DNA of 64,000 nt from Halogranum rubrum (GTDB lineage Archaea > Halobacteriota > Halobacteria > Halobacteriales > Haloferacaceae), in assembly GCF_900114455.1 (NCBI RefSeq), contig NZ_FOTC01000010.1, forward strand, positions 1 to 64,000, in the 5' to 3' direction. The position numbers and the translations under genes are program-made. The notes beneath the pieces are model-generated. The model saw only the letters and a program-made list of their open reading frames with translations. It did no database searches and was not told where the DNA came from. Shown here one piece after another: positions 21,323 to 44,902 of the stretch. Positions within the stretch are counted from its first letter, which is position 1, and every line of letters starts with the position of its first letter.

Positions 21323-24232
21323 CTATACGGGAAGAGTCAGACAGTAGGCCTCAATATCAGGCGCCAGAGAGATGACCTGTTCTCGCTTCCGTAGCTCCGT
21401 CTTCCTAGATGCGATTCGGGTTTCCAGCTGCTCAAGACGTTGTTTTTGGTTCCGAATCGCGATACGCATATCCGACCCCGTAGTCGCTTTTTGTTCGTAC
21501 GAATCGATGAACGACTGAATTCGATCTCGCTCTGCTTGCTCGTATGCCTCCAGGTCAGACAGTTCCTGCTGGACATCCTGCTGGCGGGTTTCGAGAAGGT
21601 CCTCACGGATGTCGGCGACCATACTACTGATGTACCTTTCAGCGGCGTCTTCGAGTTCATCACGTTGCTTGAGCAGGCGAGAGACCGTACTCTCATCTGG
21701 ACGAGCGTGAATCGTCTCTGCATCAAGGACGCGCTGGCCGAGGGAACGCTGGGCGTCGAGTCCAGCGAGGTCGACGTAGACGGGGATGAGTTGCTCACGA
21801 ATCGTCTTGCCGGTCGCATCTTCGAAGGCGACTTTGTAGACGAATGTGATGCCGGGTTGATCGACGAACGGCAGGAGCTTCATTCCGGTCTTCCCCGCGT
21901 GCTGTTCCTGCTGGAGAACCAGATCACGGAGGGCCTGTAGAACATCCGCGTCCGGAGAGAGGTACTCGATTCCGTCGTGATCGATGGCGAAATCGCGGCT
22001 AAAGGTGAACGGACCCAGCGTCTCAGGCTGTCCACTGTCAGTCACTTCAGGTGGGACTTCTGCCTCGTACAGCTGGTTTCCGCGTTTCTCGACAGAGCCC
22101 TCAAACGCCTCGATAGCTCGGGTGAAGAACTCGCGGATCTCCTGTTCACTCCCGAAGACGTCCTCTGAGTCGTCGACGATCGACTGAATCTCTTGTCGAC
22201 TCTGGGCGTCGAACGTACTGCAGTCGATGAGACTCCGTTCGTACCACTCGAGGAGTGTCTGTTCACGCTCTTCCATCAACTCCTCAAGTTCCTCTTTCGT
22301 GGCCGAGGCTGGTTTCTGGTTCTGGACGGATTTCATCAGGAGGGAGTCGATGTTGACGTCGTCCAGCATCCCGAGGACGTCCGCCGTCGCGCCGACTTTC
22401 GATCGAATCTCCTCGACCTTGTCCTGGAGGAGCTCGAAGATCTCGGATTCCCGCGTGCCATCGAACTGGAAGTTCCAGACCTTGACCTCCTTATCCTGGC
22501 CGTAGCGATGGATCCGACCGATACGTTGTTCGAGGCGGTTGGGATTCCACGGGAGTTCGTAGTTGACCATGATATGGCAGCTGTGCTGGAGGTCGATCCC
22601 CTCACTGGCCGCATCGGTCGCCATCAGTAGTCGCGACGTCCCGTAGTTGAACTCGTCTTCGATCTGGGCTCGGTCGTCTTTGCTCACATCCCCGTGGATG
22701 GTCAGAATCTCGTCTGCCCACGGTTCGTCGGCGAAGAGATCGAGGAGATAGTCCAGTGTGTCGCGATACTCGGTGAACAGAATGAGCTTCTCGTCCGGGT
22801 GTTCCTCGAAGAGCTGTTCGATGTAGCGTTTGACCTTCCGGGCCTTGGTGTCGACTGGGAGGTCCTCAGCCATGGCGACGAGTTCCTGCAGGGTGTCGAT
22901 CTCTTTCTGAAGTGCTTCGTCACCCTGGGCGACCGTCAGGCGTTCGAGTTCCTGTTCCGCCTGTTCGCGGTCAGAGTCCTCCAAGTCCTCACCTTCGAGA
23001 TAGGCCGTCGCATCGGTCGAGAGACTCCGCTCGTCGGGTTCGAGCAGCCCGTGAAGTCGACGCCGGAGCGTCTCTCGAATGGCTCCCACACTGCTCACGA
23101 GCCGCTTTTGCATGAGGGCCATCGCGAAGCCGACAGCGGGCTCGTTCAGTTGGTCAGATCGGTTGTAGACCTCGCGGACGTACTCAGTTACGCGCTCGTA
23201 CAGTTGCTCCTCTGCGGGGGACATCGAGACGGTTGCCGTCTGTACATCTCGTTCGGGGAAGATGCGCTCGCCGTTGTCGTCGTAGATGGTCTCCTTCCCA
23301 CGCCGAATCATGACGCGGTTCACCGTCTCCCGAGTGAGATCCTGGTCCTCAGCGACGAGGAACGGGTCGATATAGCTGACCAGCGACCGGAACGCCTCCC
23401 CCTTGCCGTCGTGCGGCGTCGCGCTGAGCAACAGCAGGGACTCACAGTGATTGGCGACGCGTTCGGCCATGAGGGAGGTTTTGCTGGGGGACTCGCCCCG
23501 CTTGCTGGCCTTGTGAGCTTCGTCGATAACGGCGACATCCCAGAAGGCGTTCTCGATCTCGGACTGGAACTCGTCTTGACGGAGGAACGCCATGCTGGTG
23601 ACCAAACGGAGTCCTTCCTGATCCCAGATGTTCGCCTCCTCACCAAGGCGTCGGCGTTCGGCGTCGACCCATTGGCGATCTGCCACGGTGAGGTCGATAT
23701 CGAAGAACCGCTCCATATCCCGGATCCACTTCTTCTGGAGGTGTGCAGGAACGAGGAAGAGGACGCTGTTGGCTCGATTTCTGGCTTCGAGTTCTTTGAG
23801 GATGAGGCCCGCCTCGATGGTCTTCCCGAGACCGACGTCGTCGGCGATGAGCGCTCGCTGGCGGAGTTTCTGCATCACCTGATTCACACAGGCGAGCTGG
23901 TAGGGTTCGAGGCGGACGAGCGAGTTCGAGATGCTCAGGAGCTGCCCCTGCTCGTGGGCCATCTTGAGCTGGAGGGCCTCGGTTCGGAGGTCGAACCACT
24001 CCGAGGAGACTGCTTCGTGTCGGGGGTGGAGCTCTGCCACCCGGTTTTCGAGAGTATCGAGTGCATCGCTGCTTGGTTCAACAGAGACGTGGTCGAGACA
24101 GACCGTCTTCGCACCACCGCCCTTGACGTAGACTCGGAGGTACGGGAGGTTCCCGACCTCGTACGTACGGATGACTTCTGCTGGATCGCCGTTGAGTCTG
24201 ATGCGGTCACCTGGTTCGAATTCTCTATTCAT
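21323..24232 (-). CDS. brxHII: SNF2/HepA-type helicase of the BREX locus (BrxHII-like)
   Basis: 969 residues. Superfamily 2 helicase motifs are complete: Walker A ADDVGLGKTIEAG (about 130-142), DEAH box (237-240), SAT motif in LLLSATPHDG, and a C-terminal helicase domain with ATDAASEGIDLQ and NPNRLEQRIGRIHRYGQ, the SNF2-type motif V-VI pair. A long coiled-coil-rich tail follows (QQELSDLEAYEQAERDRIQ). Helicases of this type occur in BREX types 3 and 5, where they take the place of BrxL, and also as DrmD in DISARM. The neighbouring PglX, PglZ, BrxA, BrxB and BrxC decide for BREX. The start sits eight bases from the end of the upstream unknown gene. It is probably needed for phage exclusion or for remodelling at BREX sites. 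Confidence 0.82.
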   Translation of the reverse strand: MNREFEPGDRIRLNGDPAEVIRTYEVGNLPYLRVYVKGGGAKTVCLDHVSVEPSSDALDTLENRVAELHPRHEAVSSEWFDLRTEALQLKMAHEQGQLLSISNSLVRLEPYQLACVNQVMQKLRQRALIADDVGLGKTIEAGLILKELEARNRANSVLFLVPAHLQKKWIRDMERFFDIDLTVADRQWVDAERRRLGEEANIWDQEGLRLVTSMAFLRQDEFQSEIENAFWDVAVIDEAHKASKRGESPSKTSLMAERVANHCESLLLLSATPHDGKGEAFRSLVSYIDPFLVAEDQDLTRETVNRVMIRRGKETIYDDNGERIFPERDVQTATVSMSPAEEQLYERVTEYVREVYNRSDQLNEPAVGFAMALMQKRLVSSVGAIRETLRRRLHGLLEPDERSLSTDATAYLEGEDLEDSDREQAEQELERLTVAQGDEALQKEIDTLQELVAMAEDLPVDTKARKVKRYIEQLFEEHPDEKLILFTEYRDTLDYLLDLFADEPWADEILTIHGDVSKDDRAQIEDEFNYGTSRLLMATDAASEGIDLQHSCHIMVNYELPWNPNRLEQRIGRIHRYGQDKEVKVWNFQFDGTRESEIFELLQDKVEEIRSKVGATADVLGMLDDVNIDSLLMKSVQNQKPASATKEELEELMEEREQTLLEWYERSLIDCSTFDAQSRQEIQSIVDDSEDVFGSEQEIREFFTRAIEAFEGSVEKRGNQLYEAEVPPEVTDSGQPETLGPFTFSRDFAIDHDGIEYLSPDADVLQALRDLVLQQEQHAGKTGMKLLPFVDQPGITFVYKVAFEDATGKTIREQLIPVYVDLAGLDAQRSLGQRVLDAETIHARPDESTVSRLLKQRDELEDAAERYISSMVADIREDLLETRQQDVQQELSDLEAYEQAERDRIQSFIDSYEQKATTGSDMRIAIRNQKQRLEQLETRIASRKTELRKREQVISLAPDIEAYCLTLPV

Positions 24233-24745
24233 CTATCGAGTTCGAACGTAGTCCATTAGTTCTTCCCGCGTTTCTGTTCCAACGCGTGCAACACCCCGAC
24301 GTTGGTAAACCAGAACGGGATGCTGACTCTCCAGCGATTCAAGATCTACTGAATTCAAAGCACTACGGGAGGTTCCAAGACACCATATCGAATCAGTCTT
24401 TGAATGACGAAGTATCTCGTTCCAGTTTGGAGTTACAATCTGCTTGAATCTATCAGTAGTAAGAAGAACAACAATAACGTCCAGGTTACCGACCTGAGAA
24501 AGAAGAGACTCCTCAAAGCTCTCAGTAGACCTTTCATAGTCGACTGGTCGCTTTATGTTCACTGAGTCTGATCCCTTAACATATCCATACTTATCAGATA
24601 TGATATGAATCTCAGTTTTGCAATAGTCTGAGAGATCGTCTGCGAGTGTACTCACAGGTAAAAAAGAACCCTCAAAGTAGTCCGAATATGACTCCATAGA
24701 CTCACTCGTCGTCGTCGAGCCTTCCGTAAATATGCCAGCTCTCAT
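24233..24745 (-). CDS. Unknown BREX-locus protein between helicase and PglX
   Basis: 170 residues from the ATG at 24745. A TTTAAA box at 24774-24779 lies 29-34 bases upstream, so this internal ATG is a better start than the upstream TTG at 24826, which would place the box inside the gene. The protein begins MRAGIFTEGSTTTSESMESY and contains an alternating beta/alpha stretch (VGNLDVIVVLLTTDRFKQIV, then TDSIWCLGTSRSALNS) that looks like a Rossmann-type or nuclease-like fold. No catalytic motif is certain. Its base composition is AT-rich like PglX and unlike the helicase that follows. It could be a locus-specific regulator or effector; I cannot assign it. Confidence 0.55.
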   Translation of the reverse strand: MRAGIFTEGSTTTSESMESYSDYFEGSFLPVSTLADDLSDYCKTEIHIISDKYGYVKGSDSVNIKRPVDYERSTESFEESLLSQVGNLDVIVVLLTTDRFKQIVTPNWNEILRHSKTDSIWCLGTSRSALNSVDLESLESQHPVLVYQRRGVARVGTETREELMDYVRTR

Positions 24746-24839
24746 TTCCCTAGTGTATTGTCGTAGTGCATTCTTTAAACGTTCCCTAGGTATTACTCTC
24801 AAACTCGTGAGAGAGGGAATTAGCAATGATTATATTGAC

Positions 24840-27800
24840 CTACAGAACTTTGTCTTCAACCACTTCAGGAACTATTTTCTGTTCCGCAAGAGGCCGTATA
24901 TTAATCACAACACCATGGTTTTTAACGGGGGAGTATCCCGATGACAGCACTTCTTCGAGGGCTCGTTCTTGCCATTCCGATGGTAGGGCCTTCGAAAGCT
25001 CGTTACATCTCACCATGATTTCTTCACCCAATTCGACGTCATTGTCAGTCTCAGCAGCAAGTTCAGCTAAGAGACGAGCCTCTCCTTCGAGTCCTTTGCG
25101 AGGTTCGCCAGCATCAAGGAAGCTTTCCCCCTTGCTGAAATAGTAGTTCATAAAGAATATACCATTGCTTCCGTAGTGAGTAGAGCCAACTAGATCGTTG
25201 AAGTACGGGAAGAGATCGTAGAGATGAGCCTCTGCAGTTTCATCACTCTGTTGACTATAAGCTTTGCACGCTGTTTCTAATTCTTTAAGGGCATCAAGCC
25301 ATTCGTCTCGATTCTCGTTTACTCGTTCAAGGAATGTTGGACTGAAATGGTCTTCTACGTCTTCCCGGTCCATTTCTTTAACGAGTTTATCGAGCGTCTC
25401 AAGGCGTTCAGTGGTTCGTTTTCGAAACTCAACAACTTGTGGTTTTAACTCATCTGCTAACAATGCAACATCCTCATCCCGTTCGGGACTGTGGGGCGAC
25501 CCCAGTTCAAGTGCAGCTTCCTGAAACTCGCTAATTTGTGCAAGAGCACTCTCGTACCGCTCATAATCTTCCGCAGCCTCTGCTTGTTCGGTGGTCGTTA
25601 AATTGTTGTCAGTCCTTCGTTGATCAGCGACGTTCCTTCGATCTCGGTATTCAGCTTTAAGCGGTTCAAGATACCTCGATTCAATCCTATCAAATACACC
25701 CGAGTCAAGCTGATGATAGTCAATTAGACAAGCAAACCCTTCGACTGACGGGTCTGAGACGAGCCGTTTAGTCGTAAGTCGCCATAGGATTGGACGGTTG
25801 CTGAATTTTTTGAGGTGATATTCGAAGAGATTGGTTTTCAGCCAGGATTTCACATTTGGGTATGCCCCCTCATCTGGCTGTCTTTCACCCAATACTTGAT
25901 CAACCTCTGCAAGCCTGTCTTCTGCCTTCTCTCCAAATATTTGTACAAATTCATCCTCAACACGAGAGATAAGCGGGGTTTCGAGACTATCTTCCGTACT
26001 CAAAGGAACAATCCCGTCATCGTCCTCGCGAACGATTTTAAGAACAATATGCAGCAATAGATCTTTTATTAGTTCCTCGAAGTTGTCTCCAGGCTCCGTT
26101 ATTGCTTCAGGATCAAAGTCAGAAGATTCTCTGGGATCTTCGTTTGTTCTAAGGGCAATCTCTCTGAGAATCTCCTCTCTGCGGTTCTTATTTATACCGA
26201 AATGATTGAATAGGAGGTCATCGATCTGATTCGCCTTTTGATGTATCTCTTTCTCAATTTTCGATTCGAATTTAGCCGCAGAAACACCCAATTCTGGAAT
26301 AGATGGGCTATTACTACTCACCGTAGGTTGACTAATCGTGATTTCCTCCTTCAGCGCTCGATGTGGGTGGTCTTCGGCATATAGCGGTTCCTCATGACCC
26401 AAGAGATTGAGTAAGAGTGGGCCGGTGTAATATGGGGAAATGAAATCATTTTCACGAAGGGTCAGCAGTAGACCGAGAATTTCTCTGGCGAGGTCACCAA
26501 GACGATCAACTTGCTCAAGTTCCGTATCCCACGGAATCTTTGAGACTTCCCCCACCTGCCAATGGCGTCCCGTGGTGAGTGTGAGCATTAGATAAGTGGC
26601 GAGATTACTATTTGAGTATGCCAATGCCTCCCAGATTGCTCTATCCGGCAAAAACGCTTGGCCAGCGGTCCCAAATATCGAAGATTCGTGAAGATAACCG
26701 AATCTTTTCCCACCTTCCTTTATATTAGTGTATGTTAATGCATTACTGAAATAATATTCCTCACTTCGCGGATATGATCCATCATATCTCTTGACGTCTT
26801 TTCCATTCTCACCCCACCATACATTTCGAGTGACTCGGGGAAGGATCCAAGCATCGCTGCCCCCTTTTGCAAATGGGACCCACCCATCCCCCGATGTTTC
26901 CCAAAATTGTCGAAGATATCGAGCATTATTCGCGGTCGCTAACCCTTGTTTGACCGCTCCTAGACTCTTCTGGTCTGTTCTTGCGTTACTAGCATCGAAG
27001 GACGTATCCAGTTTGTATATCGAGCGGATTTCTTTCGGAACCCAGTATGATAATGGAGCCCCTGGCACCATAGAGAACTCATTGATGTCACGACGGTATC
27101 TACGTTGAATCTCAGAATCTCCGTTAGATTGTGAGAATGCTGATTCGGTGAATTTCGATTCTTTTTCCCCTTTTTTCACATCATGAAGTCGGTAGAAATC
27201 AGCCGTGGCATCTTGAGCTTGTTTCGTTCTGACAACAGTACCAGCAGTCCGTACCGTAGCTTTATCCAGCACACCAATCCCGTATTCCGCGAGGAAATCA
27301 AAGGAACCACGATCGCCAATAAAGTCCTCCCGGAAATCTTCGAATGTCCGTTTGAACATGAATGTCCGGGGGACAATCATTCCGATTCGTCCATTGTCCC
27401 TCACTATATTTTCACATACCTCAAAAAAGTTGATGTAGAACTCGGGTTTGTATTTATAATGGTCTTCAACATAGTTATGGACTTCATCTGGCATCCGATT
27501 CCCAGAACCATAAGGAGGATTCATAAGTGCGACATCATAATCTTGGGATAGAATTACCAGAGTTCGGAGGAAACTTTTCAAATCGCGTGCAATAAATGAA
27601 TCACCGCTCCGGCGATTTGCTACCTTAGAATGGAGATTTTCCAGAAACGTGGTGAGACTCCCGGGACCATCGATTGACTCCTGAATTGTTGGCTGCTCTT
27701 TGGTAGTGAACTCTTCCTTCAATGTGCCCCTTACATCAAGTAAGGAACCTAGCCCATGCACCTCCTCAAAGGCATCAAGGATTTCTTCTAAAGCCGCTCG

Positions 27801-29069
27801 GACATCCGGTCGATCACCAGCAATTTCATCAAAGACTTCCGGTGCTGACTCAATATTTGCAATATTAGCATCGGCGCAGACGATCCCAACACTAGGCATA
27901 TGGAACTCATCAATTCCTTCCGCTTCTGCACGGCTACGAGCTTTGAGATATAAATTAAACGTAGCAAGTTGACAGGCGCGTAGATCCAAATCAACACCAT
28001 AGAGATTGTGTTTGAGTATTTTCTCTGGGATGGATTTTTTGTCTAGGTTGGGATATTCTTCACGCCAGATTCGCTCAAGAACATCAAAAGCATATAGAAG
28101 GAAGTGCCCACTACCACAAGCTGGATCAATAACTCGGATATCCTCAGGGGATTTAATTTCTGGTGTAGACTCTGGTTCTTCAGTTGGTACCAGATAAGTA
28201 CTGAAATCTGCAAGAGATGGTGATTCCGAGGTTGACGGGTCACGTGATTTTCTCTCTTCAGGAGTAAGGGATTCTTGTCTTTCAATTGTAGATATTAAGT
28301 CACCTCTAGATTCTAGATACATCTTGGAGAGACTATTGTCAGTCAGCATCCTCACCACCCAGTGGGGAGTGTAAAATTGGTTAGCCGCAGGCACGTCTTC
28401 TGGGTCCAGACCTTGATAGTCTCCTTTTCGGCGCAGTTCTTCTAGCTTAGATGAATTATAATATTCATAAATCCAACCAAGAACATCGTCAGCACGCCAG
28501 ACTTCTTCGGGTACCTTATCGAGCTTCCGACAAAGTTCCTCGAATATATCTACATCAGGTTCAATGATACTGTAGGGAGAATCTGCATCAAACAAGATCT
28601 CAATTTCGTTCGCAAGGTTGTCGCACACCTTATTGTAAGCTTCAATTTTTGCCTCATCAGGACTAAGGTATTTCTCATTCTCAAGTTTCTCCGCAGCAGG
28701 AGTAGTTCCGGAAGCTCCAAATTGAGTCACTGGTCGATCGATGAATCCTCGCACTTCCATACATCGAATAGCAGTAAGCCGATTGATTATCGTATATCCG
28801 ACCCCCATCACATACCGCTCAAACTTCTCCTCCCACGTACCATCATCGTCCTCTCGCTCCACGGCCTTTTCGAGATCTCTTCGCTTAGTCTTGACTTCTC
28901 CAGAGAGCTCATCACCCCCATCGGCACTATTTAGCTCGTACGCGTGCTCAAGTTGATATTGGATGTCTGATTCGACGATTTCACGCAATTCAGTAACAAC
29001 TTTCTCTAGATGCTCGCGTTCTGGTTTATCTAGTTGAGCCTTCGTCAAAGGAGTAGATTGATTCGACAT
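24840..29069 (-). CDS. pglX: BREX adenine-specific DNA methyltransferase PglX
   Basis: 1409 residues, within the usual PglX size range. S-adenosylmethionine motif I is VIDPACGSGHFLLYA (about 313-327) and catalytic motif IV is DVALMNPPYGSGNR (NPPY at 516-519), diagnostic for N6-adenine methylation. A helical N-terminal domain of about 300 residues contains the EDVPAANQFYTPHWVV segment typical of PglX, and a long C-terminal region probably recognises the target sequence. In BREX systems PglX marks host DNA at a short non-palindromic site. The gene is clearly more AT-rich in third codon positions than the flanking helicase and the brxA-pglZ operon, which suggests a separate or recent acquisition. 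It is transcribed divergently from the brxA operon. Confidence 0.9.
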   Translation of the reverse strand: MSNQSTPLTKAQLDKPEREHLEKVVTELREIVESDIQYQLEHAYELNSADGGDELSGEVKTKRRDLEKAVEREDDDGTWEEKFERYVMGVGYTIINRLTAIRCMEVRGFIDRPVTQFGASGTTPAAEKLENEKYLSPDEAKIEAYNKVCDNLANEIEILFDADSPYSIIEPDVDIFEELCRKLDKVPEEVWRADDVLGWIYEYYNSSKLEELRRKGDYQGLDPEDVPAANQFYTPHWVVRMLTDNSLSKMYLESRGDLISTIERQESLTPEERKSRDPSTSESPSLADFSTYLVPTEEPESTPEIKSPEDIRVIDPACGSGHFLLYAFDVLERIWREEYPNLDKKSIPEKILKHNLYGVDLDLRACQLATFNLYLKARSRAEAEGIDEFHMPSVGIVCADANIANIESAPEVFDEIAGDRPDVRAALEEILDAFEEVHGLGSLLDVRGTLKEEFTTKEQPTIQESIDGPGSLTTFLENLHSKVANRRSGDSFIARDLKSFLRTLVILSQDYDVALMNPPYGSGNRMPDEVHNYVEDHYKYKPEFYINFFEVCENIVRDNGRIGMIVPRTFMFKRTFEDFREDFIGDRGSFDFLAEYGIGVLDKATVRTAGTVVRTKQAQDATADFYRLHDVKKGEKESKFTESAFSQSNGDSEIQRRYRRDINEFSMVPGAPLSYWVPKEIRSIYKLDTSFDASNARTDQKSLGAVKQGLATANNARYLRQFWETSGDGWVPFAKGGSDAWILPRVTRNVWWGENGKDVKRYDGSYPRSEEYYFSNALTYTNIKEGGKRFGYLHESSIFGTAGQAFLPDRAIWEALAYSNSNLATYLMLTLTTGRHWQVGEVSKIPWDTELEQVDRLGDLAREILGLLLTLRENDFISPYYTGPLLLNLLGHEEPLYAEDHPHRALKEEITISQPTVSSNSPSIPELGVSAAKFESKIEKEIHQKANQIDDLLFNHFGINKNRREEILREIALRTNEDPRESSDFDPEAITEPGDNFEELIKDLLLHIVLKIVREDDDGIVPLSTEDSLETPLISRVEDEFVQIFGEKAEDRLAEVDQVLGERQPDEGAYPNVKSWLKTNLFEYHLKKFSNRPILWRLTTKRLVSDPSVEGFACLIDYHQLDSGVFDRIESRYLEPLKAEYRDRRNVADQRRTDNNLTTTEQAEAAEDYERYESALAQISEFQEAALELGSPHSPERDEDVALLADELKPQVVEFRKRTTERLETLDKLVKEMDREDVEDHFSPTFLERVNENRDEWLDALKELETACKAYSQQSDETAEAHLYDLFPYFNDLVGSTHYGSNGIFFMNYYFSKGESFLDAGEPRKGLEGEARLLAELAAETDNDVELGEEIMVRCNELSKALPSEWQERALEEVLSSGYSPVKNHGVVINIRPLAEQKIVPEVVEDKVL

Positions 29070-29203
29070 GATATCCGTTGCTCTAGTTCCTACCTCAAAA
29101 TGAACCTACATCAAACTTCCCACCTGCTACATCATCTCCCGATTTGGCCCTATTGTCTCCCGAAGTCAGTCTCATGAGCAACTGAAAGCTAATTATAGAA
29201 AAT

Positions 29204-29818
29204 TTAAACCAATAATTCATCCTGTAGTTTTTCGAATTCATCGTGGGCAACCTGCTCTGTATTTATTCCTGTGAATACTACCTTTCGGGAAGAAAAGATT
29301 AAAATCGTGCAACTACTTCCATCAGGCCGGTAAACTAAACCCGGGAATTGCTCTGGCTCGTATTCTGTTTTTTCCATCCCGAGAAGAATACAAACATTAT
29401 TCAAATCAAGCGGTCCTTCAGTATCAAGTTCTGCTGTAAAAACGATGTTTTGTATACTAAGTGGTTTCAAAACTTCAGAATCGGTAGGGAACCGATCAGA
29501 AAGGATTCCCAGACTGCGAAGAGAATTAAATAGATGGTGTTTCGCTGTCTCTAAATCATCGTACGAATTTGCGCCCGTGAATATATAAACACCAGTTCGA
29601 GTGAGAATCCCTCTGGTATTAGATTCAGAAAATCGGATCAGTAATCGATCTCCGTTCTTTTTACTATGTTCTACTTCCGACACCATACTAAGAGCCCGTA
29701 GATCTTTAGACAATGTTGCTAATTCAAGCTCTAAGTCAAATTTCCCAGATGCAACGATGTTTGCAATCGAAAGCATGGTAGTGTATTCGTTGTAGCAGAG
29801 TAGTTGCGTGTCCCTCAT
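29204..29818 (-). CDS. Divergent TATA-binding protein (TBP) paralogue in the BREX locus
   Basis: 204 residues built as two TBP repeats. Repeat 1 (about 16-105) begins LSIANIVASGKFDLELELA and ends in RTGVYIFTGANSYDDLETA. Repeat 2 (about 118-200) has LSIQNIVFTAELD, LDLNNVCILLGMEKTEYEPE, QFPGLVYR, LIFSSRKVVFTG and the EKLQDEL helix, a near-canonical TBP half. Repeat 1 lacks the EQFPGL(V/I)Y element that places DNA-bending phenylalanines, so it is degenerate. Haloarchaea carry several TBPs; this one is unusually divergent and sits between pglX and brxA, in AT-rich DNA. It may direct or modulate transcription of the BREX genes or of an infecting phage. The internal Met at 29776 is an alternative start. 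Confidence 0.8.
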   Translation of the reverse strand: MRDTQLLCYNEYTTMLSIANIVASGKFDLELELATLSKDLRALSMVSEVEHSKKNGDRLLIRFSESNTRGILTRTGVYIFTGANSYDDLETAKHHLFNSLRSLGILSDRFPTDSEVLKPLSIQNIVFTAELDTEGPLDLNNVCILLGMEKTEYEPEQFPGLVYRPDGSSCTILIFSSRKVVFTGINTEQVAHDEFEKLQDELLV

Positions 29819-30177
29819 ATACTACTCGGTGGGAGAGGCTTGATACCTCAGCCACATCTTGGATTCACTAATTCCGAGATCCATGACCGACCCAAAGCCA
29901 GGGAATGAACTCCAGATACTCCGAAGTGCCTCCATTAGGTTTATCAGTGTTGTGCGCAACACGTTAATTGACGCTTCGCTTTGGAGGGCCGAAGCGTCAG
30001 CGGGGACCAATTCAGGGCGGCACTACGGCTGGAAATTCCAGCCGTGGTCCTTTCCTATTACGCAGATTAGGGTTTCGGAATATCGGGGATAGATTGACCA
30101 ATTTCATATAGTTCCCCGCAATGACTCCCAAATCTCCCACAAGAACTTCTAAGTAGATACCACAGTCTCGTCATAGT
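29819..30177. other. Divergent BREX intergenic region with strong hairpins
   Basis: About 360 bases between the TBP-like gene and brxA. A 62-codon frame on the minus strand (29822-30010, TTG start) spans the hairpins and is not convincing. Three inverted repeats lie within 100 bases (listed separately). A weak CTTCTAAG element at 30146-30153 lies 25-32 bases before the brxA start. The clustered hairpins could be the end of a decayed insertion sequence, a structured RNA or a set of operators. Confidence 0.45.
29947..30045. repeat. Cluster of three hairpin-forming inverted repeats
   Basis: Repeat A: GTGTTG/CAACAC (29947-29952, 29957-29962) with a four-base loop. Repeat B: TGACGCTTCG/CGAAGCGTCA (29969-29978, 29990-29999), perfect 10-base arms with an 11-base loop. 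Repeat C: ACGGCTGGAA/TTCCAGCCGT (30025-30034, 30036-30045), perfect arms around a single A. Strong adjacent stems of this kind occur at the ends of IS200/IS605-type elements and their guide RNAs; no transposase or TnpB remnant is visible here. Confidence 0.6.
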
Positions 30178-31017
30178 ATGGCTACAGGTCGAAACGGGGA
30201 ATTAGATTCATGGCTTCCATCTCTCGTTGGGAAGTTCCCCGAATCGAAAATCACGATGGCTTTGACTCGGTGTGGTCTCCAGACCGAGAGAACGCACGAG
30301 ATCTCCTCTCTCTACGCGGACGAGCTCGATTGGACTTCGGTGAAAGAGATATGGTACGACGAACGCGTGGCGAATCGGAGTAGTCGAAATAGTTCGAAAT
30401 CCCTGCTCATCGCAATTCGAGCACGTCTCCAATCAGCCGGAGACGGACTCCCATCAGTCCCGCAACTCCCAGCGATTCTGGATCAGTGTCGAAACGAACG
30501 CGACCAAGCACAGGTCCTCTTCCTCTATCTCATCAACCACGATGGACTGGCCCGTTATGTCGTTCACGAGTATCTCCGCCGACTGATGAAGCAAGGACCT
30601 TCTATGCTTGACTTTGAGATGGACACCGTTCTTAGCATACTCGACGAGTTCCGTGACAAAGCTGGTGAACCACTAGACTACTCTGAGTCGACCCAAAAGC
30701 GATGGGTACAGGGATTCCGGTCTGCACTCCGGGATATCGGTGTCCTCGAAGGGAAAACCGAGACATCAGGTCAACCGCCGAAGGTTGGCGATGTACCTCT
30801 CCAGGTCGCGGCCTACTACTCCTGGGCACAGAACGGCGACGAATGGCTCACGAAGCCGATTGGCTGGCTCTATCTGTTCCAGTCCGAAGAGTACTGGGAA
30901 CCGCAGAGCAAGCGGCTGGCCGGATATGAGGGTTGGACGCACCACGAAGCTCGGAGTCGCGTCTGGTTCGAACCCGTCGACGACTTCTACACGAATCTCG
31001 CGGAGGGGTCGGCATGA
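30178..31017 (+). CDS. brxA: BREX protein BrxA
   Basis: 279 residues. The region VLFLYLINHDGLARYVVHEYLRRL (about 116-139) and the following helical stretch with STQKRWVQGFRSALRDIGVL match the DUF1819/BrxA family, a small helical protein shown to bind DNA in bacterial BREX. It is somewhat longer than bacterial BrxA (about 200 residues) because of a C-terminal extension rich in Trp and Tyr. It is the first gene of the plus-strand BREX operon, and its stop overlaps the brxC start (ATGA at 31014-31017). It is required for exclusion in studied systems; here the function is by family and context. Confidence 0.78.
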   Translation: MATGRNGELDSWLPSLVGKFPESKITMALTRCGLQTERTHEISSLYADELDWTSVKEIWYDERVANRSSRNSSKSLLIAIRARLQSAGDGLPSVPQLPAILDQCRNERDQAQVLFLYLINHDGLARYVVHEYLRRLMKQGPSMLDFEMDTVLSILDEFRDKAGEPLDYSESTQKRWVQGFRSALRDIGVLEGKTETSGQPPKVGDVPLQVAAYYSWAQNGDEWLTKPIGWLYLFQSEEYWEPQSKRLAGYEGWTHHEARSRVWFEPVDDFYTNLAEGSA

Positions 31018-34000
31018 CTTCCATGAAGGACCTGTTCGAGAAGCAGGACGCGACCTTCGAGGAATCAATTCGCATCGACCGGAAGTTCGAGGAGGACGAA
31101 GACAGAGCCGCTCATCGCGACCAGCTCTACCGCCACTACCTCGACACCTACCACATCACAAAAGCTTCAGAAAACTATCTCAAGGACTTCTTCACTCGAA
31201 TCCACGGCCACGACGAAGAGATGCGGAAGGGAGCCAATCACTGGCTCTACGGGTACTACGGGAGCGGGAAGAGTCACCTGCTGACTGTCCTCAACCTCCT
31301 CACAGCCTCTGCAGATCTCGAAGAGGAGGACAGAGAGGAGGTCTGGAATCGGCTGGATTCGGATGGTTCCTACACCGAACTCTTCGAGACGTGGTCCTCG
31401 ATGCTCGACGAGTACCGTCTCGTCCCCCTCCCGATCAACCTCCTGAAGTACCAGAGCGTCCGGGAGCAGAGCTTCAGTGAGATCATCCTCCAAGCAGTCT
31501 ATCAGGCACGAGGCCTCTCGAACCGACTTGACGTTGCATTCTTCGAGGAGTGGTACCAGAATCAGGGAACGTGGGGCCAGCGCGATGACCTCACGAAAGA
31601 GATCCTCCAAGCCGAAGACGTTCCCAACGCGGATCAGTATTCGTGGGACGACGTCCAACAGTACCGAATCCTTTCTGACCTCGTCCTGGAGGAACTCGTC
31701 GAACGAGAGACGGGCACCGCAGATGGGTTGGCAGACATCCAACGGCAGGATATCGGGCAGCGGATGGCTGTCGAAGCCGTCGAGGCGTATCGACAAGAAC
31801 TCGAAGCGAAGTCGGAGAAACCAGTCAAGATCGTCCTCCTCGTCGACGAGGTGACGCTGTTCATTGGTGGAAACTACCAGCGTCTCTCGGAACTCAACGC
31901 ACTCGCGGAGAGTATCGATACGATCGGCGATGGAGACATCCAGATGGTCGCGACGGCGCAGTCCGAAATCGAGGACGTCCGACCGGGACTTGCCGCGAAG
32001 CAACTCGACTTCGGGATTCTCAAGGATCGGTTCCCACACCAGTACCACCTGCCAAGTCATCACGTCGGGGAAATCGTCCAGCGTCGCCTTCTCGAGAAAA
32101 CCGAAAAGGGCGTAGACTGGGTTGAGTCAGAAGCACTAACGGCGCGGGTGCATCCGACCTCCACGTTCGTCTACTCAGAGGTTGGACAGAACACAGAGCC
32201 GCCTCTCAATCGAGTAGACGAAGACAAGTTCGTAAAGTTCTATCCGCTCCTACCTTATCAGCCGGCGCTCTTCCTAGAGATTCTCTCGAATCTTCGGAAC
32301 GAGTTGGCCGACTCGACGAAGTCGATCTTCTCAGGAACAGCGAGAGCAATTCTCGCCATCGTCGCCGGACTCCGGGACCGCTGGATGCGCGACGAGAAGA
32401 AAGACGAGCTGTCCCTCATCAGTCTCGTCGACTTCTATGACCTGATTCAATACGAACTCGAGGACATCATCCCCAACGAGATCGAAGTTCTAGAAGAGAT
32501 TGAAGACGACGAGGACACGACTGAATTCGACCTCAAGGTCGCAAAAGCAGTCTTGCTCCTCTCGTACGTGCCCGATTCAGTCCCACAGAACGACGCCAAC
32601 ATCGCGGTTGCGGTGATGGACGACCTCAACGGCCAGCCGCGGACGACTGTCCGAAACCAAGTCCAGAATTCACTGGAGAACCTCGACAAGTACATCAGAC
32701 CAAACACGGCCGAGGACGGGCCTCTACTCCGAATCACGGATCGAGAGGAACGAGAGATCATCGAAGAGGCACGCAAAAACCGCGAGAACCCAGATTGGGA
32801 CGAGATTATCGCCGCTCTCGACAACGAACTTTGGGCAGACATCCGTCCTCGCCTGAACCTGCCAACGTCGGTTCCCTACGGCGGGGACGGCGACAACTAC
32901 CCCATCTCGTACAGCTTCTCCATCGATGGGCAATCACTAGATGGGGCTGACGAGCACGAGAGTGCGCTCGAAGCATCCGTTGTTATCCGAGGAGTGCGAC
33001 CTGATATCGACTCCAAGAAAATCAACGAGGGAACCATCTACTGGTCGGTCAAGCAGGATGGACTGGATGATCTCCGAAGCCAGCTCATCGAATGGTGGTC
33101 GTTCCACAAAGCCACGGCCGAGACGGAGACGCCTGATACGATAGCCCGAGACGTCGACGATGCAGCAGAGAGGGTAAAGAGTAAACTCGCGAGCGCACTC
33201 AAGGATGGCTCGTTCAAGGTCGAATCTCAGGAACCACGTGGACTAGAGTCTGCGGTCAAAGAGTGCATCAACCGTGCTTATCCCTCGTTCTTCCACCCCG
33301 TCATGCTTGAGGTGGACCAGAGCTACCTGACAGAGCTTAAGCGGCTCAGCGACGACGAGGAGTATCCAGAGTGGGCACAGAAAATCGATGTCCCGAGACC
33401 AGATGCGGAGGTGTCTACGATGGGGACGATTGCGAAAGAGGTTCGAGGCGCTGTCGGTCGAACGCTAGTCGCCCATGACAACGAGATGGGGCTGCCAGCG
33501 CTCTTCGAGAAAATCACGGAGGAGACGCCGTTCTATGGAGAAGTTAAACCCGCAGTAACGGCGGTCCTCTGGGGGCTGTGTCGAGCCGGAGAGTTCCGTC
33601 CCGTAGCAGAAGACGGAGAAGCTCTTGCTGCGGATGAATTGCTAACGCTCTCACAGCAGATGGAAATCAAGTTGCGCACGGCACCGTCGTCCACGTCGCT
33701 CAAAGAGCAGTTCATCGATGCTGGAATCATCGAACCGATTCAGACGGTCGACGAGGGAATTGTTGCCCTCGAAGAACTGAACGAGTCGATAAAGAGACGA
33801 GCACGAACGCTAACAGAGACGACAGAAGTCAGTACAGAGACTGAACTGGAGAACGATGCGCTCATCTCTCTGGTAGCGGCGTTCAGTAATACCCTCTCCG
33901 AACTGGCGGATGCTGCAGAATCTCGCGCCGAAGCAATCACTGCAGACGATACGGATTGGGAGGACGTAATCGACCAGGTGGCGAGTGACGAAGAATGGAT

Positions 34001-34715
34001 ATCTGCAGTGGAAGAGCGATGGGAATCCAGAGAACCTTACCTGTTACAACTCGACGGTCTGCTACGGTTCAGCGAACTGGAGATTGAATGGCTTAGCCAA
34101 TCGTTCTACGACGCACTGAACCAACTAACCCAACAACTCAACGAAGAATCTGGTCGGGAGTGGTGGACACAGGAAGGATGGCAGTCCTTTGATCAGTCAC
34201 TGGACGCTCGGTTGACTGCTATCGCGGCACTTGAAGAGGATTGGTCAGCTCAGGTAGCGGAGACCGACGCGAAATCACTAGCGACAGACCTCGAGGGGCA
34301 TCAATGGCTGATTCCGCCGTTACAGCTTCCAGAGCATAGCGTTCATGATGGATTTCAGTCCGGATATCTCCGCCCACTACGGCACTTCAGGGATACCCAT
34401 GATGATATCCAAGCCTGCGTTAGTGCGCTAACGAACCGAGAGCCTGGAACCCATGATGAGCGCGCGTTGAAACGAGCACTCGGGACGGTATCCTCGACGA
34501 CGGATTGGGACAGCCTTACTGAAGACCGAGTTGACACATATCGAGAAAAGCACGAGACAGTAGAACAGCTAGTCGGTGGAACTCGACCCGACGAAATTGA
34601 AGGGGTAGGAGTGCTGTTCGGCGATGAGTCTGCACTCAAGGGACAATTTGAGCGTATCGTGAAGTCGAGGAAGCCGACGATCGAGCAGGTCGATGGAGGT
34701 GTGGTTATCAAATGA
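31014..34715 (+). CDS. brxC: BREX P-loop ATPase BrxC/PglY, first copy
   Basis: 1233 residues from the ATG at 31014, which overlaps the brxA stop by four bases. An upstream in-frame start at 30933 would overlap brxA by 85 bases and is rejected. The N-terminus (MTSMKDLFEKQDATFEESIR) is typical of BrxC, followed by Walker A in LYGYYGSGKSHLL (78-90) and a Walker B in KIVLLVDEVTLFIGGNYQ near residue 280. The long C-terminal half is helical with predicted coiled coils. BrxC/PglY is the large AAA-like ATPase present in all BREX types. It is followed by brxB with a four-base overlap. A second homologue lies two genes downstream. Confidence 0.86.
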   Translation: MTSMKDLFEKQDATFEESIRIDRKFEEDEDRAAHRDQLYRHYLDTYHITKASENYLKDFFTRIHGHDEEMRKGANHWLYGYYGSGKSHLLTVLNLLTASADLEEEDREEVWNRLDSDGSYTELFETWSSMLDEYRLVPLPINLLKYQSVREQSFSEIILQAVYQARGLSNRLDVAFFEEWYQNQGTWGQRDDLTKEILQAEDVPNADQYSWDDVQQYRILSDLVLEELVERETGTADGLADIQRQDIGQRMAVEAVEAYRQELEAKSEKPVKIVLLVDEVTLFIGGNYQRLSELNALAESIDTIGDGDIQMVATAQSEIEDVRPGLAAKQLDFGILKDRFPHQYHLPSHHVGEIVQRRLLEKTEKGVDWVESEALTARVHPTSTFVYSEVGQNTEPPLNRVDEDKFVKFYPLLPYQPALFLEILSNLRNELADSTKSIFSGTARAILAIVAGLRDRWMRDEKKDELSLISLVDFYDLIQYELEDIIPNEIEVLEEIEDDEDTTEFDLKVAKAVLLLSYVPDSVPQNDANIAVAVMDDLNGQPRTTVRNQVQNSLENLDKYIRPNTAEDGPLLRITDREEREIIEEARKNRENPDWDEIIAALDNELWADIRPRLNLPTSVPYGGDGDNYPISYSFSIDGQSLDGADEHESALEASVVIRGVRPDIDSKKINEGTIYWSVKQDGLDDLRSQLIEWWSFHKATAETETPDTIARDVDDAAERVKSKLASALKDGSFKVESQEPRGLESAVKECINRAYPSFFHPVMLEVDQSYLTELKRLSDDEEYPEWAQKIDVPRPDAEVSTMGTIAKEVRGAVGRTLVAHDNEMGLPALFEKITEETPFYGEVKPAVTAVLWGLCRAGEFRPVAEDGEALAADELLTLSQQMEIKLRTAPSSTSLKEQFIDAGIIEPIQTVDEGIVALEELNESIKRRARTLTETTEVSTETELENDALISLVAAFSNTLSELADAAESRAEAITADDTDWEDVIDQVASDEEWISAVEERWESREPYLLQLDGLLRFSELEIEWLSQSFYDALNQLTQQLNEESGREWWTQEGWQSFDQSLDARLTAIAALEEDWSAQVAETDAKSLATDLEGHQWLIPPLQLPEHSVHDGFQSGYLRPLRHFRDTHDDIQACVSALTNREPGTHDERALKRALGTVSSTTDWDSLTEDRVDTYREKHETVEQLVGGTRPDEIEGVGVLFGDESALKGQFERIVKSRKPTIEQVDGGVVIK

Positions 34716-35338
34716 CGTCGACGCGAAACCCGCTCAAGAGATTCACCAAAGAGTTGGTCGACTTCGCAAGTGGCGAACGACGGGGAATTCGAAATCCCTT
34801 CGTCATGGTTCCGGTCGAACCATCCGTTGAACATCGCGTGACCGAACGGTTGATTCGATGGGCGGATCCCGAGACACCAGATACACTGACAAACTGGGTT
34901 GACGTCGAGGATCAGGCCGGCAACGAACTCAAAGTCGAGTGTGTTCGGCTAGACCATCTGATGCCTGAAACGCACGTTTTCGAGACCACCCTCGACCTCG
35001 GGCCGCTTGAGCGAACCACCACCAAAGCAGTGACGGAGACGCTCGAAACGAGTCTTGCTGACGAACTCATCGGGAAACTCGTCGATGAACAACTCAAAGG
35101 TGAGAATGCGCAGCAACATATCCTCCTGCTGCTGAACCTCGGAAGCCTCTATCCGTTCACCCGCGCCTCAGAGCTGCTCGATGAGATGGATCGCCGAAAC
35201 GTGAATTCCACAATCGGAATCCCGTTCCCTGGTCGGATCAGAGGAGGGAAATTGAGCTTCTTCAACGAGGACGCACGCCACTACTACCCAGCCCACCGAA
35301 TTGACGAGAAAATCACTGAGGTGTATCTCGATGACTGA
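34712..35338 (+). CDS. brxB: BREX protein BrxB (DUF1788)
   Basis: 208 residues. The conserved BrxB features are the segment HILLLLNLGSLYPFTRASEL (about 133-152) and, near the C-terminus, IPFPGRIRGGKLSFFNEDAR followed by HYYPAHRI, corresponding to the DUF1788 block P-G-x-x-x-L-x-F...Y-x-A. The molecular role of BrxB is not established; it is essential in type 1 BREX. Start and stop overlap brxC (four bases) and the second brxC-like gene (eight bases), so the operon is translationally coupled throughout. Confidence 0.82.
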   Translation: MTSTRNPLKRFTKELVDFASGERRGIRNPFVMVPVEPSVEHRVTERLIRWADPETPDTLTNWVDVEDQAGNELKVECVRLDHLMPETHVFETTLDLGPLERTTTKAVTETLETSLADELIGKLVDEQLKGENAQQHILLLLNLGSLYPFTRASELLDEMDRRNVNSTIGIPFPGRIRGGKLSFFNEDARHYYPAHRIDEKITEVYLDD

Positions 35339-38300
35339 TACAACACTTGAATCACTGTTTGCTCGCTCGCCGACGCGAGAACTCGAGGAAGTACAGAAAG
35401 TCAACGAAGTCGGCCAAGCCGAACGCGACATCGACGAGTTCTACGAGACTGATAGCGCTCGAAAGGTCCTCACAGAACTTGGAGAGATTGTCAACAGCAC
35501 AGGATCACAGCCTCGATTCCGGTACGTCCATGCCACCTTCGGATCTGGGAAAACACACCTCCTGAAGCTAATCGGAATCGCGACTGGCGAGATCGAGGGA
35601 CTCGGAACCGTAGCCCCGAAGCTTTCGAGTCAATTCTCCGGGTTCAAGGAATTCAGAGACCGACTCAATTCGTCCCACATTGACCACCTTGTTCCTCTGT
35701 TTATGAACCTCCTCGACCGGGACAAGGTTCGTGACTCAACGCTCTCGCTCCTGATCTACGAGGAGCTGGGGAATCAGCTCAACTACCCGACTGACCCGCT
35801 CTGGTTACTCGAGTGGATATGGACCTTAGAAATCGAGCACGGGCTCTGGGAAGCCGTACGCTCAGTAGAGCACAACGGTATGTCGCTGCAGGAAGCTGCA
35901 CAAGACAAGGCTGCGCTTCGTCCCTGGCTCTATGAAGCTCTTCCCGAGATGGACGAGACTGATGGCACGCCCTACGCAACGGAAGAGGGCGTCAAGGAAT
36001 CGATCCAGCAAGCCACGGGCCAAATCAGTACTGAAGCGTTCACGCCCGATGAACTCGTAGAACGACTGGACCGAACGAAGCGCTACTTACAGGAATCGGG
36101 CGAGACGTACGAGTTCCTCATTGGACTCGACGAAGTCGCCATCTACGTTGGTGACCAGCAACACCGCTATCGAGAGTTCTTAGAAACAGTCGATACGCTC
36201 ATCGCCGACATCAATCCCCCAATTCTGGGGACAGGACAGTGGTCGCTGCGGGACATGCAGCAGGACTTCATGGGAGAGGTCGATCCTGAAGCGTGGTACA
36301 CGAACGAAATTCCGCTCCGTGGTGCTGACACCGAGATCATCGTCAGAAAGCGGTGGCTCAGAAAGTCAGATTCCGGTACTGAAACGGTGCACGACCTGCT
36401 CGACCGAACTCCGGATTTCGAGCCAGAACTTGCCGACGCATCCGAGTACACCGACGTTGGAGACCCCCTAGAGGCGTACCCCTTCCGTGAACACGACCTC
36501 TGGTTGCTCCGCGAGGTCATGCAGAGCCTCAAGAAAGAAGACTTGGAAGTGGACAGGGAGTATGTTCAGGGACGCGCACTGCTGATTCTCGTCCGTTCTC
36601 TCTTCACGAGCTTCGATTGGGCCCAGAAGGAACCGGGAGCGGTCGTTGCGTGGGATGAAATCTATGACCTAATTGAGCGTGAAACGACGGACATTCCGGG
36701 GTGGGCAAAGGACCAAATCCAGAAAGTCGAGAACACGACCAACGAGATGGGAGTGAGCGTCGCGAAGGTCCTCTATCTCCTTGGTCAAGTCGACGCCGTC
36801 CCGACAACGAAGAAGAACATCACGCGACTTCTGGTTGGTTCAGTAGATACTGACATCGATCAGCTCGAAAGCGATGTCGAGGAAGCCCTCGAAGCGCTGA
36901 TGGAGGACAACTTCGTCCGAACTGACGAGAGTGTCCAACCGCAGACGTACCGAATTCTGTCGAAGGAGATCGTCGAATTCTGGGATCAGGTCCATCGAGA
37001 GGCCGCAGGACTCCCCAAACACCAAGTTCGTTACAATATCGAGGATCTTCTTAGAGAGGCGGACCGTGGTCGGTTGACCGCCGATGATTCGCTCCGCACG
37101 CGGAACATCGACGGGATCTCCGACGCCCCGTACACGTTCCGCTACACCGTATTAGATCAAGTCGACGCATCACCGGAACCTCGTTTCGATGGTGTGGTTG
37201 CCAGAGTACTCGCAGCAGACTCGGATACAATAGAAGAATCGCGAACGACATGGCAGGAAGCAAACGCTGGTGAACAAGGAGTTGAAGACGTCCTTGTCGT
37301 TATTGAGCTTTCGGAGGGGCTTCGCGAAAGTATTCGGCATCTGATTGCGTTGGATTCGTTATTGGAACCAGGGGCGAGCGCAGAGCTCCGGATCGAGCAA
37401 CAACAAGAGGAGGAGACTGTCGAAGACGAGATCGAGGAGCTCCTCTATGGTGCGAAGCTCTATACGCCAGACCATAACACGACGCGAGGGACCTATCTAA
37501 GCAACATCGATAGTGTGCTCGCTGATGCGGTCAGGGATAAGTTCAAGAACAGGAAGACGCTCGATACGCGGCTGCAGGAAGTCGACGACGCTCGCACCCT
37601 CTTCGAGTTCTTCAATGGGAACGGTACGTGGCCGTTCTCAGCCGACGATGCAGAAAGGCTCGGAGTAAAGACAGTTCCGAGAGAGATTAGCGATGGGTGG
37701 GCTGAAGAGTTCCTCAACGATTACGCTGGAGAGGAATTAGTGAGCGGAGAGACTGTCCTCGAAGAAATCGCGGGTCGGCGTGGGAAATATCTTGGTACGC
37801 CACGCGAAGCACTTGCCGCGCTTCTGATCACGCTCGCCGCGGCAAACAAAATCGAAATCAGACGCGATGGTGTCCGCATTGAGGACCCTGGTGAGATCGG
37901 TCGTTCAATGATACGCCTTTCCGATATCCGTGACATCGATATTGGATTCGATCCGGTGGACATTGAGGGTAGTAGCAATCTAAAAGCGGTCTATCAATCA
38001 CTCCGAGGATTCGCACCGCAAGGGAATGATCCAACCGCTTGGCTCTCCAATCTAGCATCCTGGGCAGAAAAGAATAGTTCGGACATTCGGAATACCTGTG
38101 CTCGTGTGGATCTCGAATTCGACGAGGAAATCACGCTGGATGCACTTCGTGACGCGTTAGAACCAGGGATGGCTGGTGGCGAGCTTGACGATGCAGTATT
38201 GACTGAATCACCAGTACCAACGCAGGCAGAGTGGTTCCACAAAGCAGAACCATTATTCGAGGGCGATGAGCCGCTCTGGGACGAGTTCACAAGTTCACTC

Positions 38301-39023
38301 GAGACGATGCGGTCACTGTACCCTGATGCTGCGATCACCTACAAGATGGAGGACGCCGTCGATGGGTCACGCATCCCGTCCAAGGAGAGCCTCGCTACAC
38401 TCCAGGCAAAGGCTCATGACTTCCGCGCGTCACAGATTAGTGAACTCCATCATCTTCTCACGGGAACCACACCTGAAGCAGATTCGATCTCTGACCTCTG
38501 TTCAGCGGTCGAGCAAGTATTCCTGGATCACGATGTAATCGTGGATATCGATGCTGCCACCGAGACGATTTCAGGAGTGACTTTCGAGTCGCTCAGAGAA
38601 CTCGAGGAGATTGCGGCATCCGCGGAAGACATCTCCGAATCAGATATCGCATCGGGGAACGCAGTCAGCGAAGCTGGCCAGCTTGAGAAAGCACGAGGAC
38701 TACTCGAGGACCAACCAGACGGGTCACTCTACGACCAGCTCGAATCTCGGTACGAGAAACTCAAGGCAGAACACTCGGATGCGTTCATTACGAAGCAGGT
38801 GAAGCGTGCGCTAAGCGGGCCAGACCTCGTCACACCGTCTCGATCAGAAGCGCTGGTAAAACAGGCCGATGCAAAGCTCCAGTCAAAAGACGATGACGAG
38901 GACGACGAAGACGATGATGATCAAGAGGACGATGGACCATCAGTCGACGAGCTCTGGGCAGAGGTAACAGAACCAGGTGACGGAACTATCGTGGTTATCG
39001 ATACAGAGGAGAGAGACCGATGA
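35331..39023 (+). CDS. BREX P-loop ATPase BrxC/PglY, second copy
   Basis: 1230 residues from the ATG at 35331, inside the end of brxB. The Walker A motif YVHATFGSGKTHLLKL (65-80) and the Walker B-like EFLIGLDEVAIYVGDQQHRY near residue 270 parallel the first BrxC, but the two proteins are otherwise very different, so this is an old divergence rather than a recent duplication. The C-terminus ends in a strongly acidic run (DDDEDDEDDDDQEDDG). Two BrxC/PglY genes in one locus, together with a BrxHII helicase, is the arrangement reported for type 5 BREX, known from haloarchaea. The two ATPases may form a hetero-oligomer or serve separate steps. The stop overlaps pglZ by four bases. Confidence 0.82.
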   Translation: MTDTTLESLFARSPTRELEEVQKVNEVGQAERDIDEFYETDSARKVLTELGEIVNSTGSQPRFRYVHATFGSGKTHLLKLIGIATGEIEGLGTVAPKLSSQFSGFKEFRDRLNSSHIDHLVPLFMNLLDRDKVRDSTLSLLIYEELGNQLNYPTDPLWLLEWIWTLEIEHGLWEAVRSVEHNGMSLQEAAQDKAALRPWLYEALPEMDETDGTPYATEEGVKESIQQATGQISTEAFTPDELVERLDRTKRYLQESGETYEFLIGLDEVAIYVGDQQHRYREFLETVDTLIADINPPILGTGQWSLRDMQQDFMGEVDPEAWYTNEIPLRGADTEIIVRKRWLRKSDSGTETVHDLLDRTPDFEPELADASEYTDVGDPLEAYPFREHDLWLLREVMQSLKKEDLEVDREYVQGRALLILVRSLFTSFDWAQKEPGAVVAWDEIYDLIERETTDIPGWAKDQIQKVENTTNEMGVSVAKVLYLLGQVDAVPTTKKNITRLLVGSVDTDIDQLESDVEEALEALMEDNFVRTDESVQPQTYRILSKEIVEFWDQVHREAAGLPKHQVRYNIEDLLREADRGRLTADDSLRTRNIDGISDAPYTFRYTVLDQVDASPEPRFDGVVARVLAADSDTIEESRTTWQEANAGEQGVEDVLVVIELSEGLRESIRHLIALDSLLEPGASAELRIEQQQEEETVEDEIEELLYGAKLYTPDHNTTRGTYLSNIDSVLADAVRDKFKNRKTLDTRLQEVDDARTLFEFFNGNGTWPFSADDAERLGVKTVPREISDGWAEEFLNDYAGEELVSGETVLEEIAGRRGKYLGTPREALAALLITLAAANKIEIRRDGVRIEDPGEIGRSMIRLSDIRDIDIGFDPVDIEGSSNLKAVYQSLRGFAPQGNDPTAWLSNLASWAEKNSSDIRNTCARVDLEFDEEITLDALRDALEPGMAGGELDDAVLTESPVPTQAEWFHKAEPLFEGDEPLWDEFTSSLETMRSLYPDAAITYKMEDAVDGSRIPSKESLATLQAKAHDFRASQISELHHLLTGTTPEADSISDLCSAVEQVFLDHDVIVDIDAATETISGVTFESLRELEEIAASAEDISESDIASGNAVSEAGQLEKARGLLEDQPDGSLYDQLESRYEKLKAEHSDAFITKQVKRALSGPDLVTPSRSEALVKQADAKLQSKDDDEDDEDDDDQEDDGPSVDELWAEVTEPGDGTIVVIDTEERDR

Positions 39024-43744: not shown

Positions 43745-43769
43745 AAGATCACAGAACATCAACAACATC

Positions 43770-44894: not shown

Positions 44895-44902
44895 CTCGAT
44901 AA

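Follow-up and report, generated by a model that had tools for sequence, protein, structure and literature searches.

TATA-binding-protein paralogues with an altered first repeat recur beside BREX and restriction-modification genes in haloarchaea

Why should a BREX defence locus carry a gene for a TATA-binding protein (TBP)? The question is raised by the window, by which we mean the whole 64,000-nucleotide stretch of Halogranum rubrum DNA analysed here (contig NZ_FOTC01000010.1, positions 1 to 64,000), where an ORF of 204 amino acids on the minus strand (29204..29818, ATG at 29818) encodes a TBP-like protein; the family alignment makes Met15, at ~29776, the more likely true start. Pfam TBP matches this ORF in two stretches (E=1.4e-27). 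Repeat 2 (29213..29458, minus strand, 68 bits) is canonical, containing EYEPEQFPGLVYR and LIF, with its intercalating Phe pair and the two TFB-contact Glu intact, and repeat 1 (29513..29773, minus strand, 31 bits) has a short insertion and its Phe pair replaced by G and T, so that the four intercalating columns read G, T, F, F when aligned with canonical TBPs. Because repeat 1 lacks both intercalating Phe, the protein is not a canonical general TBP. Pfam and alignment thus agree with the initial annotation, which had described a two-repeat TBP with a near-canonical second repeat and a first repeat without the Phe element, and the structural comparison with archaeal TBP that it proposed points the same way: the AlphaFold2 model, based on 48 aligned relatives, has a pLDDT of 90.7 and forms a full TBP saddle (VIA-align, Z~19) that matches solved TBPs, including Pyrococcus 1ais, with Z values of 18-19 and an rmsd of ~2.1 A over 176 residues. 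Pfam also reported a weak extra match to DUF3378; we take DUF3378 to be the part of RNase HIII that resembles TBP, an example of the fold at work outside transcription. The genome contains three further TBPs, all canonical with four Phe, and ~16 TFB genes; no TFB gene adjoins the TBP in the window, the nearest one lying at 85153-85680 of the same contig.

The flanking genes constitute a complete type 5 BREX set according to PADLOC and Pfam (brxA, brxB, two brxC/pglY, pglX, pglZ and brxHII), and an identical gene set is annotated as 'BREX-5' in Halanaeroarchaeum. On the minus strand there are a BrxHII-like SNF2/helicase gene (21323..24232; Pfam Helicase_C and SNF2-rel_dom), the accessory orf197 (24233..24826) and pglX, coding for the BREX-5 adenine methyltransferase (24840..29069; PADLOC PDLC02518, 1981.7 bits), and on the plus strand brxA (30178..31017; PDLC02456), a first brxC copy (31020..34715, in an ORF that opens at 30933; PDLC02474), brxB (34712..35338; PDLC02467), a second brxC copy (35301..39023; PDLC02473) and pglZ (39020..41173; PDLC02562). 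These matches confirm the position between pglX and brxA that had been claimed for the TBP gene, which lies 134 bp upstream of pglX, reads in the same direction as it and faces away from brxA across ~360 bp. The block of TBP, pglX and orf197 is a low-GC cassette at 24-30 kb, with 42-47% G+C against 54-60% around it. The orf197 product gave no Pfam or PADLOC matches, and tblastn places its gene beside pglX in ~8 other BREX-5 loci. Right next to the BREX locus (42674-48483) we also observed a CBASS-like operon with Cdc6/AAA, SMODS nucleotidyltransferase, E2/ThiF/JAB fusion and TIR-SAVED effector genes.

The protein belongs to a larger class. When 153 TBP ORFs were typed by their four Phe columns, they divided into canonical FFFF proteins and a class with an altered repeat 1 in which repeat 2 is almost always FF, to which we refer as half-TBPs. 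Haloarchaeal TBPs of this kind were described in 2014 as 'TbpC-like', defined as lacking the N-terminal but retaining the C-terminal Phe pair, which also holds for the window TBP, and their role was left open ('nonfunctional or ... very specialized role'), tbpC transcripts of Halobacterium NRC-1 being reported as undetected (Becker et al. 2014, PMC4230888). In our tree, 54 out of 55 half-TBPs, with the window TBP among them, fall in one clan (SH-aLRT 84 for the whole clan and 97 for a 49-row subset), where NRC-1 TbpC is represented by its homologue DL1 'TbpC' and not by the NRC-1 gene itself. With full support, the window TBP groups with three others: a BREX TBP (G268), gp41 of the virus HJTV-2, which is its nearest relative at 52% identity, and a TBP (G297) that adjoins an N4-type methyltransferase and an integrase-like gene. 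A single BREX-specific TBP lineage was rejected (AU p=1.75e-5; five changes), and since the BREX TBPs do not form one clade, recruitment must have happened repeatedly, several independent times. Some loci contain pairs of different half-TBP genes, in part adjacent, beside type I or IIG restriction-modification (RM) genes (L022, L025, L028, L224 and L230). Several viral contigs of 34-166 kb (L203-L209) encode canonical four-Phe TBPs that are not close to the haloarchaeal half-TBPs.

To see how often BREX loci contain such genes, we searched 392 genomes from the order with a BrxC model, detected BREX in 59 of them and scanned up to 18 kb on each side of every brxC with BREX proteins and a TBP profile. 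Half-TBPs were found inside or within 1 kb of BREX genes at 13 of 62 sites, including the window, with 14 TBP ORFs (one a fragment), all of the half-type. With 0.59 TBPs per Mb in these genomes, only 0.73 TBP ORFs would be expected (Poisson P ~8e-14, or 3e-5 if local density were five-fold), and there were none in 1.15 Mb of BREX flanks (binomial P 2e-4). TBP-like genes are joint first among the accessory gene families of BREX loci (12 sites). They occupy several positions, namely pglX/brxA, brxC/pglX, pglX/pglZ, brxHII/pglZ, upstream of brxA and behind pglZ, and many of them are divergent from pglX, brxHII or brxA. Annotated public records give the same picture: the TBP is divergent from pglX in the BREX-5 loci of Halanaeroarchaeum and Halococcus dombrowskii, and in a BrxL-type BREX of Haloarcula halophila it has an Eco57I-type methylase on one side and PglZ on the other. 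The other 49 loci have no TBP within ~18 kb. The expectation that type 5 BREX loci would carry a TBP-like gene at the same place is therefore only partly upheld: recurrence lies far above chance, but positions and TBP clades vary and most BREX-5 loci lack the gene. A gene for a wHTH-like regulator, possibly an alternative regulator, was present in or near six BREX loci (G109_C1 and five other sites), and two half-TBPs, one in a BREX locus (L116:14316-15188, genome G075) and one elsewhere (L022:603-1424), have an extra N-terminal domain of ~80 aa that appears winged-helix-like by eye and for which Pfam gave nothing beyond a weak match to PqqD.

For half-TBPs in general and for canonical haloarchaeal TBPs, we then compared the nearest two genes on either side. 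PADLOC models matched by the 124 genes next to half-TBPs numbered 404, led by MTase_I, MTase_II, IIG and PglX, whereas the 108 genes next to canonical TBPs matched 14, with type I and II methyltransferases and PglX absent and one weak IIG match. In Pfam, half-TBP neighbours included N6_Mtase (13), Eco57I (10), HsdM_N (6) and HSDR_N (4), none of which occurred beside canonical TBPs, and 21 of the half-TBP neighbours form one N6-methyltransferase cluster. A tally made by hand, with the window left out, placed a type I, IIG or II modification gene adjacent to the TBP or at most three genes off in ~29 of 39 distinct half-TBP loci, counting one helicase-only and one DUF1156 case, in a non-random sample, ordered by how closely each half-TBP resembles that of the window; among 35 canonical haloarchaeal TBP loci, essentially none adjoins modification genes. 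The TbpC-type gene on pNRC200 of Halobacterium NRC-1 (VNG_RS11040) follows a methyltransferase and a helicase gene with 4-bp overlaps, an order that recurs in Hrr. lacusprofundi, Halolamina and Natronomonas marina. The frames overlap in pHLAC01 as well, and in other plasmids they are adjacent or almost adjacent. In the viruses HJTV-2 and HRTV-9 the half-TBP lies inside an RM cassette, and clade A, the clade of the window TBP, adjoins methyltransferases as unrelated as PglX and an N4-cytosine enzyme. The half-TBP class is thus a mobile companion of type I, IIG and II RM systems and of BREX in haloarchaea and their viruses. The initial annotation had considered that a TBP found mostly outside defence islands would make the placement accidental; the half-TBP clade lies mostly beside defence modification genes, and the enrichment, the flank comparison and the neighbour comparison together rule out accidental placement. 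No paper joining BREX, haloarchaea and TBP was found in the literature searched, with subscription papers outside its scope, a genome announcement was the single hit that brought together RM, TATA-box binding and haloarchaea, and the novelty of this linkage is provisional.

Residue conservation also separates these proteins from decaying copies. The roles of the columns discussed here (TFIIB-contact Glu, central Asn and Phe) are assigned by homology, by way of human TBP numbering. Among 53 half-TBPs, the Glu pair (E154/E156) is retained in 51 and 52, respectively, near-invariant residues further include both central Asn and the Phe pair of repeat 2, and the second Phe of repeat 1 is Tyr in 41, clade A lacking even the Tyr replacements. 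The scan of genome contigs selected for the repeat-2 motif, and a pattern-free subset of 45 gives the same picture. In usable close pairs the dN/dS of repeat 1 is mostly 0.04-0.17, as in canonical TBPs, so that repeat 1 is maintained and, judged by these ratios, both repeats are under purifying selection. Together with the retained TFB-contact Glu, this argues against a dying gene, and the dN/dS values reject a pseudogene explanation for the class. The residue pattern and the selection on repeat 1 speak for DNA binding that would be altered, not lost, with TFB contact kept.

The core promoters of brxA and pglX are strongly conserved, at a fixed distance to the start codon, across 62 BREX-5 sites with and without TBP (for example CAACATTAAAG, CAATCTTCAAG and TAAAGTGG). 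In the window they comprise a pglX core-promoter element, GGGAAGTTTGATG (29109..29121, minus strand), and a TATA-like brxA element, CTTCTAAGTA (30146..30155, plus strand), both common to TBP-less relatives. No promoter unique to TBP-bearing loci was found among these sites, the brxA and pglX motifs being alike in both groups. Both window promoters are homologous to those of the close BREX relatives G064, G290 and G352, in which pglX and brxA are ~120 bp apart with no TBP between them. The two promoters are thus probably older than the TBP gene, which would have been gained between them together with ~0.4 kb of its upstream DNA; the pglX cassette was apparently swapped together with this gain. 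G064 and G381 instead have a TBP from a different clade (family B) directly behind pglZ, G352 has a fragment of such a TBP there, and no remnant of it was found at that place in the window. Between the TBP gene and brxA there is also a copy of a small-RNA-like element conserved in haloarchaea (29967..30063, plus strand), of ~95 nt with two hairpins and preceded by a TATA-like GTTTATC at ~29939-29945. Its 35-nt core is near-identical in 21 of 25 haloarchaeal genomes, with 1-3 copies in each, it gave no Rfam match, and among the 62 BREX loci it occurs only in the two with clade-A TBPs (the window and G268), adjoining the TBP gene.

From the conservation of residues, the selection on both repeats and the linkage to modification genes we infer a transcriptional controller. 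Our preferred reading, which we hold tentatively and at slightly less than an even chance, is that the half-TBP is a TFB-dependent controller of the adjacent defence system, by analogy with RM controller proteins or BrxR. Repeat 2 would keep binding to the upstream half of the TATA box and the TFB-contact stirrup, and repeat 1 would keep its fold and central Asn, having lost the two Phe responsible for kinking the other half. The half-TBP could then occupy the same brxA and pglX promoters as canonical TBP, where a weaker or differently bent TBP-TFB complex would form and tune the expression of methyltransferase and restriction genes, most likely holding it down and possibly timing it. The divergent orientation of TBP genes relative to pglX, brxHII and brxA is an arrangement as in autoregulators. 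The initial annotation had instead proposed dedicated promoter control, with the half-TBP as specificity factor for a special defence-locus promoter, a role that would suit the divergent positions and a changed repeat 1, with Tyr in place of Phe in most cases, that could shift TATA preference; the brxA and pglX promoters are the same in loci that have no TBP, so that it is not needed as a specificity factor. That proposal is accordingly improbable, and a half-TBP that competes with canonical TBP or modulates its action is the likelier case.

A more serious rival, though we consider it unlikely, is that the half-TBP does not act as a transcription factor but binds or bends DNA as a subunit of the modification or restriction complex. 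It owes its weight to the overlapping operons of pNRC200 and pHLAC01 and the near-adjoining genes of other plasmids, and it could also account for the TBP between pglX and pglZ in BrxL-type BREX and for the weak match to DUF3378, presumably an RNase HIII domain. Indeed, in several RM operons the TBP gene comes last and overlaps its neighbour by 4 bp, which fits a co-produced subunit equally well and counts against a controller, as do the 49 of 62 BREX loci that have no TBP nearby and the report of undetected tbpC transcripts in NRC-1. The almost invariant TFB-contact residues do not favour a subunit, although they may be kept for the structure of the stirrup instead, and neither do the absence of TBP near most BREX loci and the pairing of one TBP clade with unrelated methyltransferases, which a portable regulator fits better than a tailored enzyme subunit. 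An action on viral transcription, which the initial annotation had also raised, is quite unlikely. The half-TBP would here disrupt pre-initiation complexes at virus promoters as a decoy or competitor, or would counter TBPs encoded by viruses. A half-TBP could poison TFB binding and the closest relative of the window TBP is viral, with another in HRTV-9, but both viral genes are within RM cassettes, suggesting that their mobility is tied to RM genes, not to functions in viral transcription, and such a role would not require adjacency to methyltransferases. For the same reason an origin as a viral transcription factor is not favoured. That the half-TBP is a passive hitchhiker or a decaying copy in a variable genomic island would agree with the low-GC cassette, the fragment in G352 and fragmented copies elsewhere; it is very improbable given the strong enrichment, the several independent recruitments, the purifying selection on both repeats and a loss that consistently affects repeat 1 only.

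The recurrent placement beside DNA-methylating defence genes suggests a job for a protein class of previously open role and ties a family of basal transcription factors to antiviral defence. Why haloarchaea keep TBPs unable to kink half of the TATA box has been a puzzle, to which the placement in RM and BREX loci gives a testable answer, and NRC-1 is genetically tractable, with a tbpC that is reportedly easily deleted. TBPs of the xxFF type also provide a sequence marker for finding undescribed haloarchaeal defence loci. More broadly, it is plausible, although we would put it at rather less than even, that archaea have turned a part of their basal transcription machinery into a class of defence components. 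Half-TBPs would then be one-sided TBPs in partnership with TFB, would provide RM systems, BREX and viral RM cassettes with transcriptional control of their own and would have been recruited many times independently.

Several known systems resemble this arrangement. Controller (C) proteins are small HTH regulators linked to the methyltransferase/endonuclease operon of type II RM systems and move with it. Half-TBPs share this linkage to and movement with methyltransferase genes, whereas their fold is that of TBP and their autoregulation only putative; if they are controllers, archaea would solve the 'methyltransferase before restriction activity' problem with a modified TBP and not with an HTH repressor. 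The TbpC-like TBPs show the same loss of the N-terminal and retention of the C-terminal Phe pair, the same restriction to haloarchaea and a probable grouping with NRC-1 TbpC, seen here through its homologue DL1 'TbpC', but a defence or RM context is not noted in the available text of their description (PMC4230888). BrxR, the wHTH-WYL regulator of bacterial BREX (PMC9122589, PMC9122601), is likewise encoded by a small transcription-factor gene in the BREX locus and is found with several defence systems; in contrast, the window protein is a derivative of a basal factor with a predicted regulatory role, and Pfam detected only TBP domains and the weak DUF3378 match in it, with no wHTH-WYL domain. 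The TOTE/TALON conflict systems, which combine TPR/OB (CSD), TBP and effector parts and of which TALON is bacterial and has TPR-CSD and a YprA-like helicase, are likewise prokaryotic defence systems that include a protein with the TBP fold (PMC12458937), but half-TBPs are two-repeat, archaeal and methyltransferase-linked, and neither YprA nor TPR-CSD was seen among the scanned window genes, the genes next to the TBP being those of BREX. Finally, the KSHV TBP mimic ORF24 is a divergent TBP that serves a dedicated promoter set, and its predicted structure has been reported as incompatible with direct TFIIB binding (PMC12529657), whereas half-TBPs keep the TFB-contact residues.
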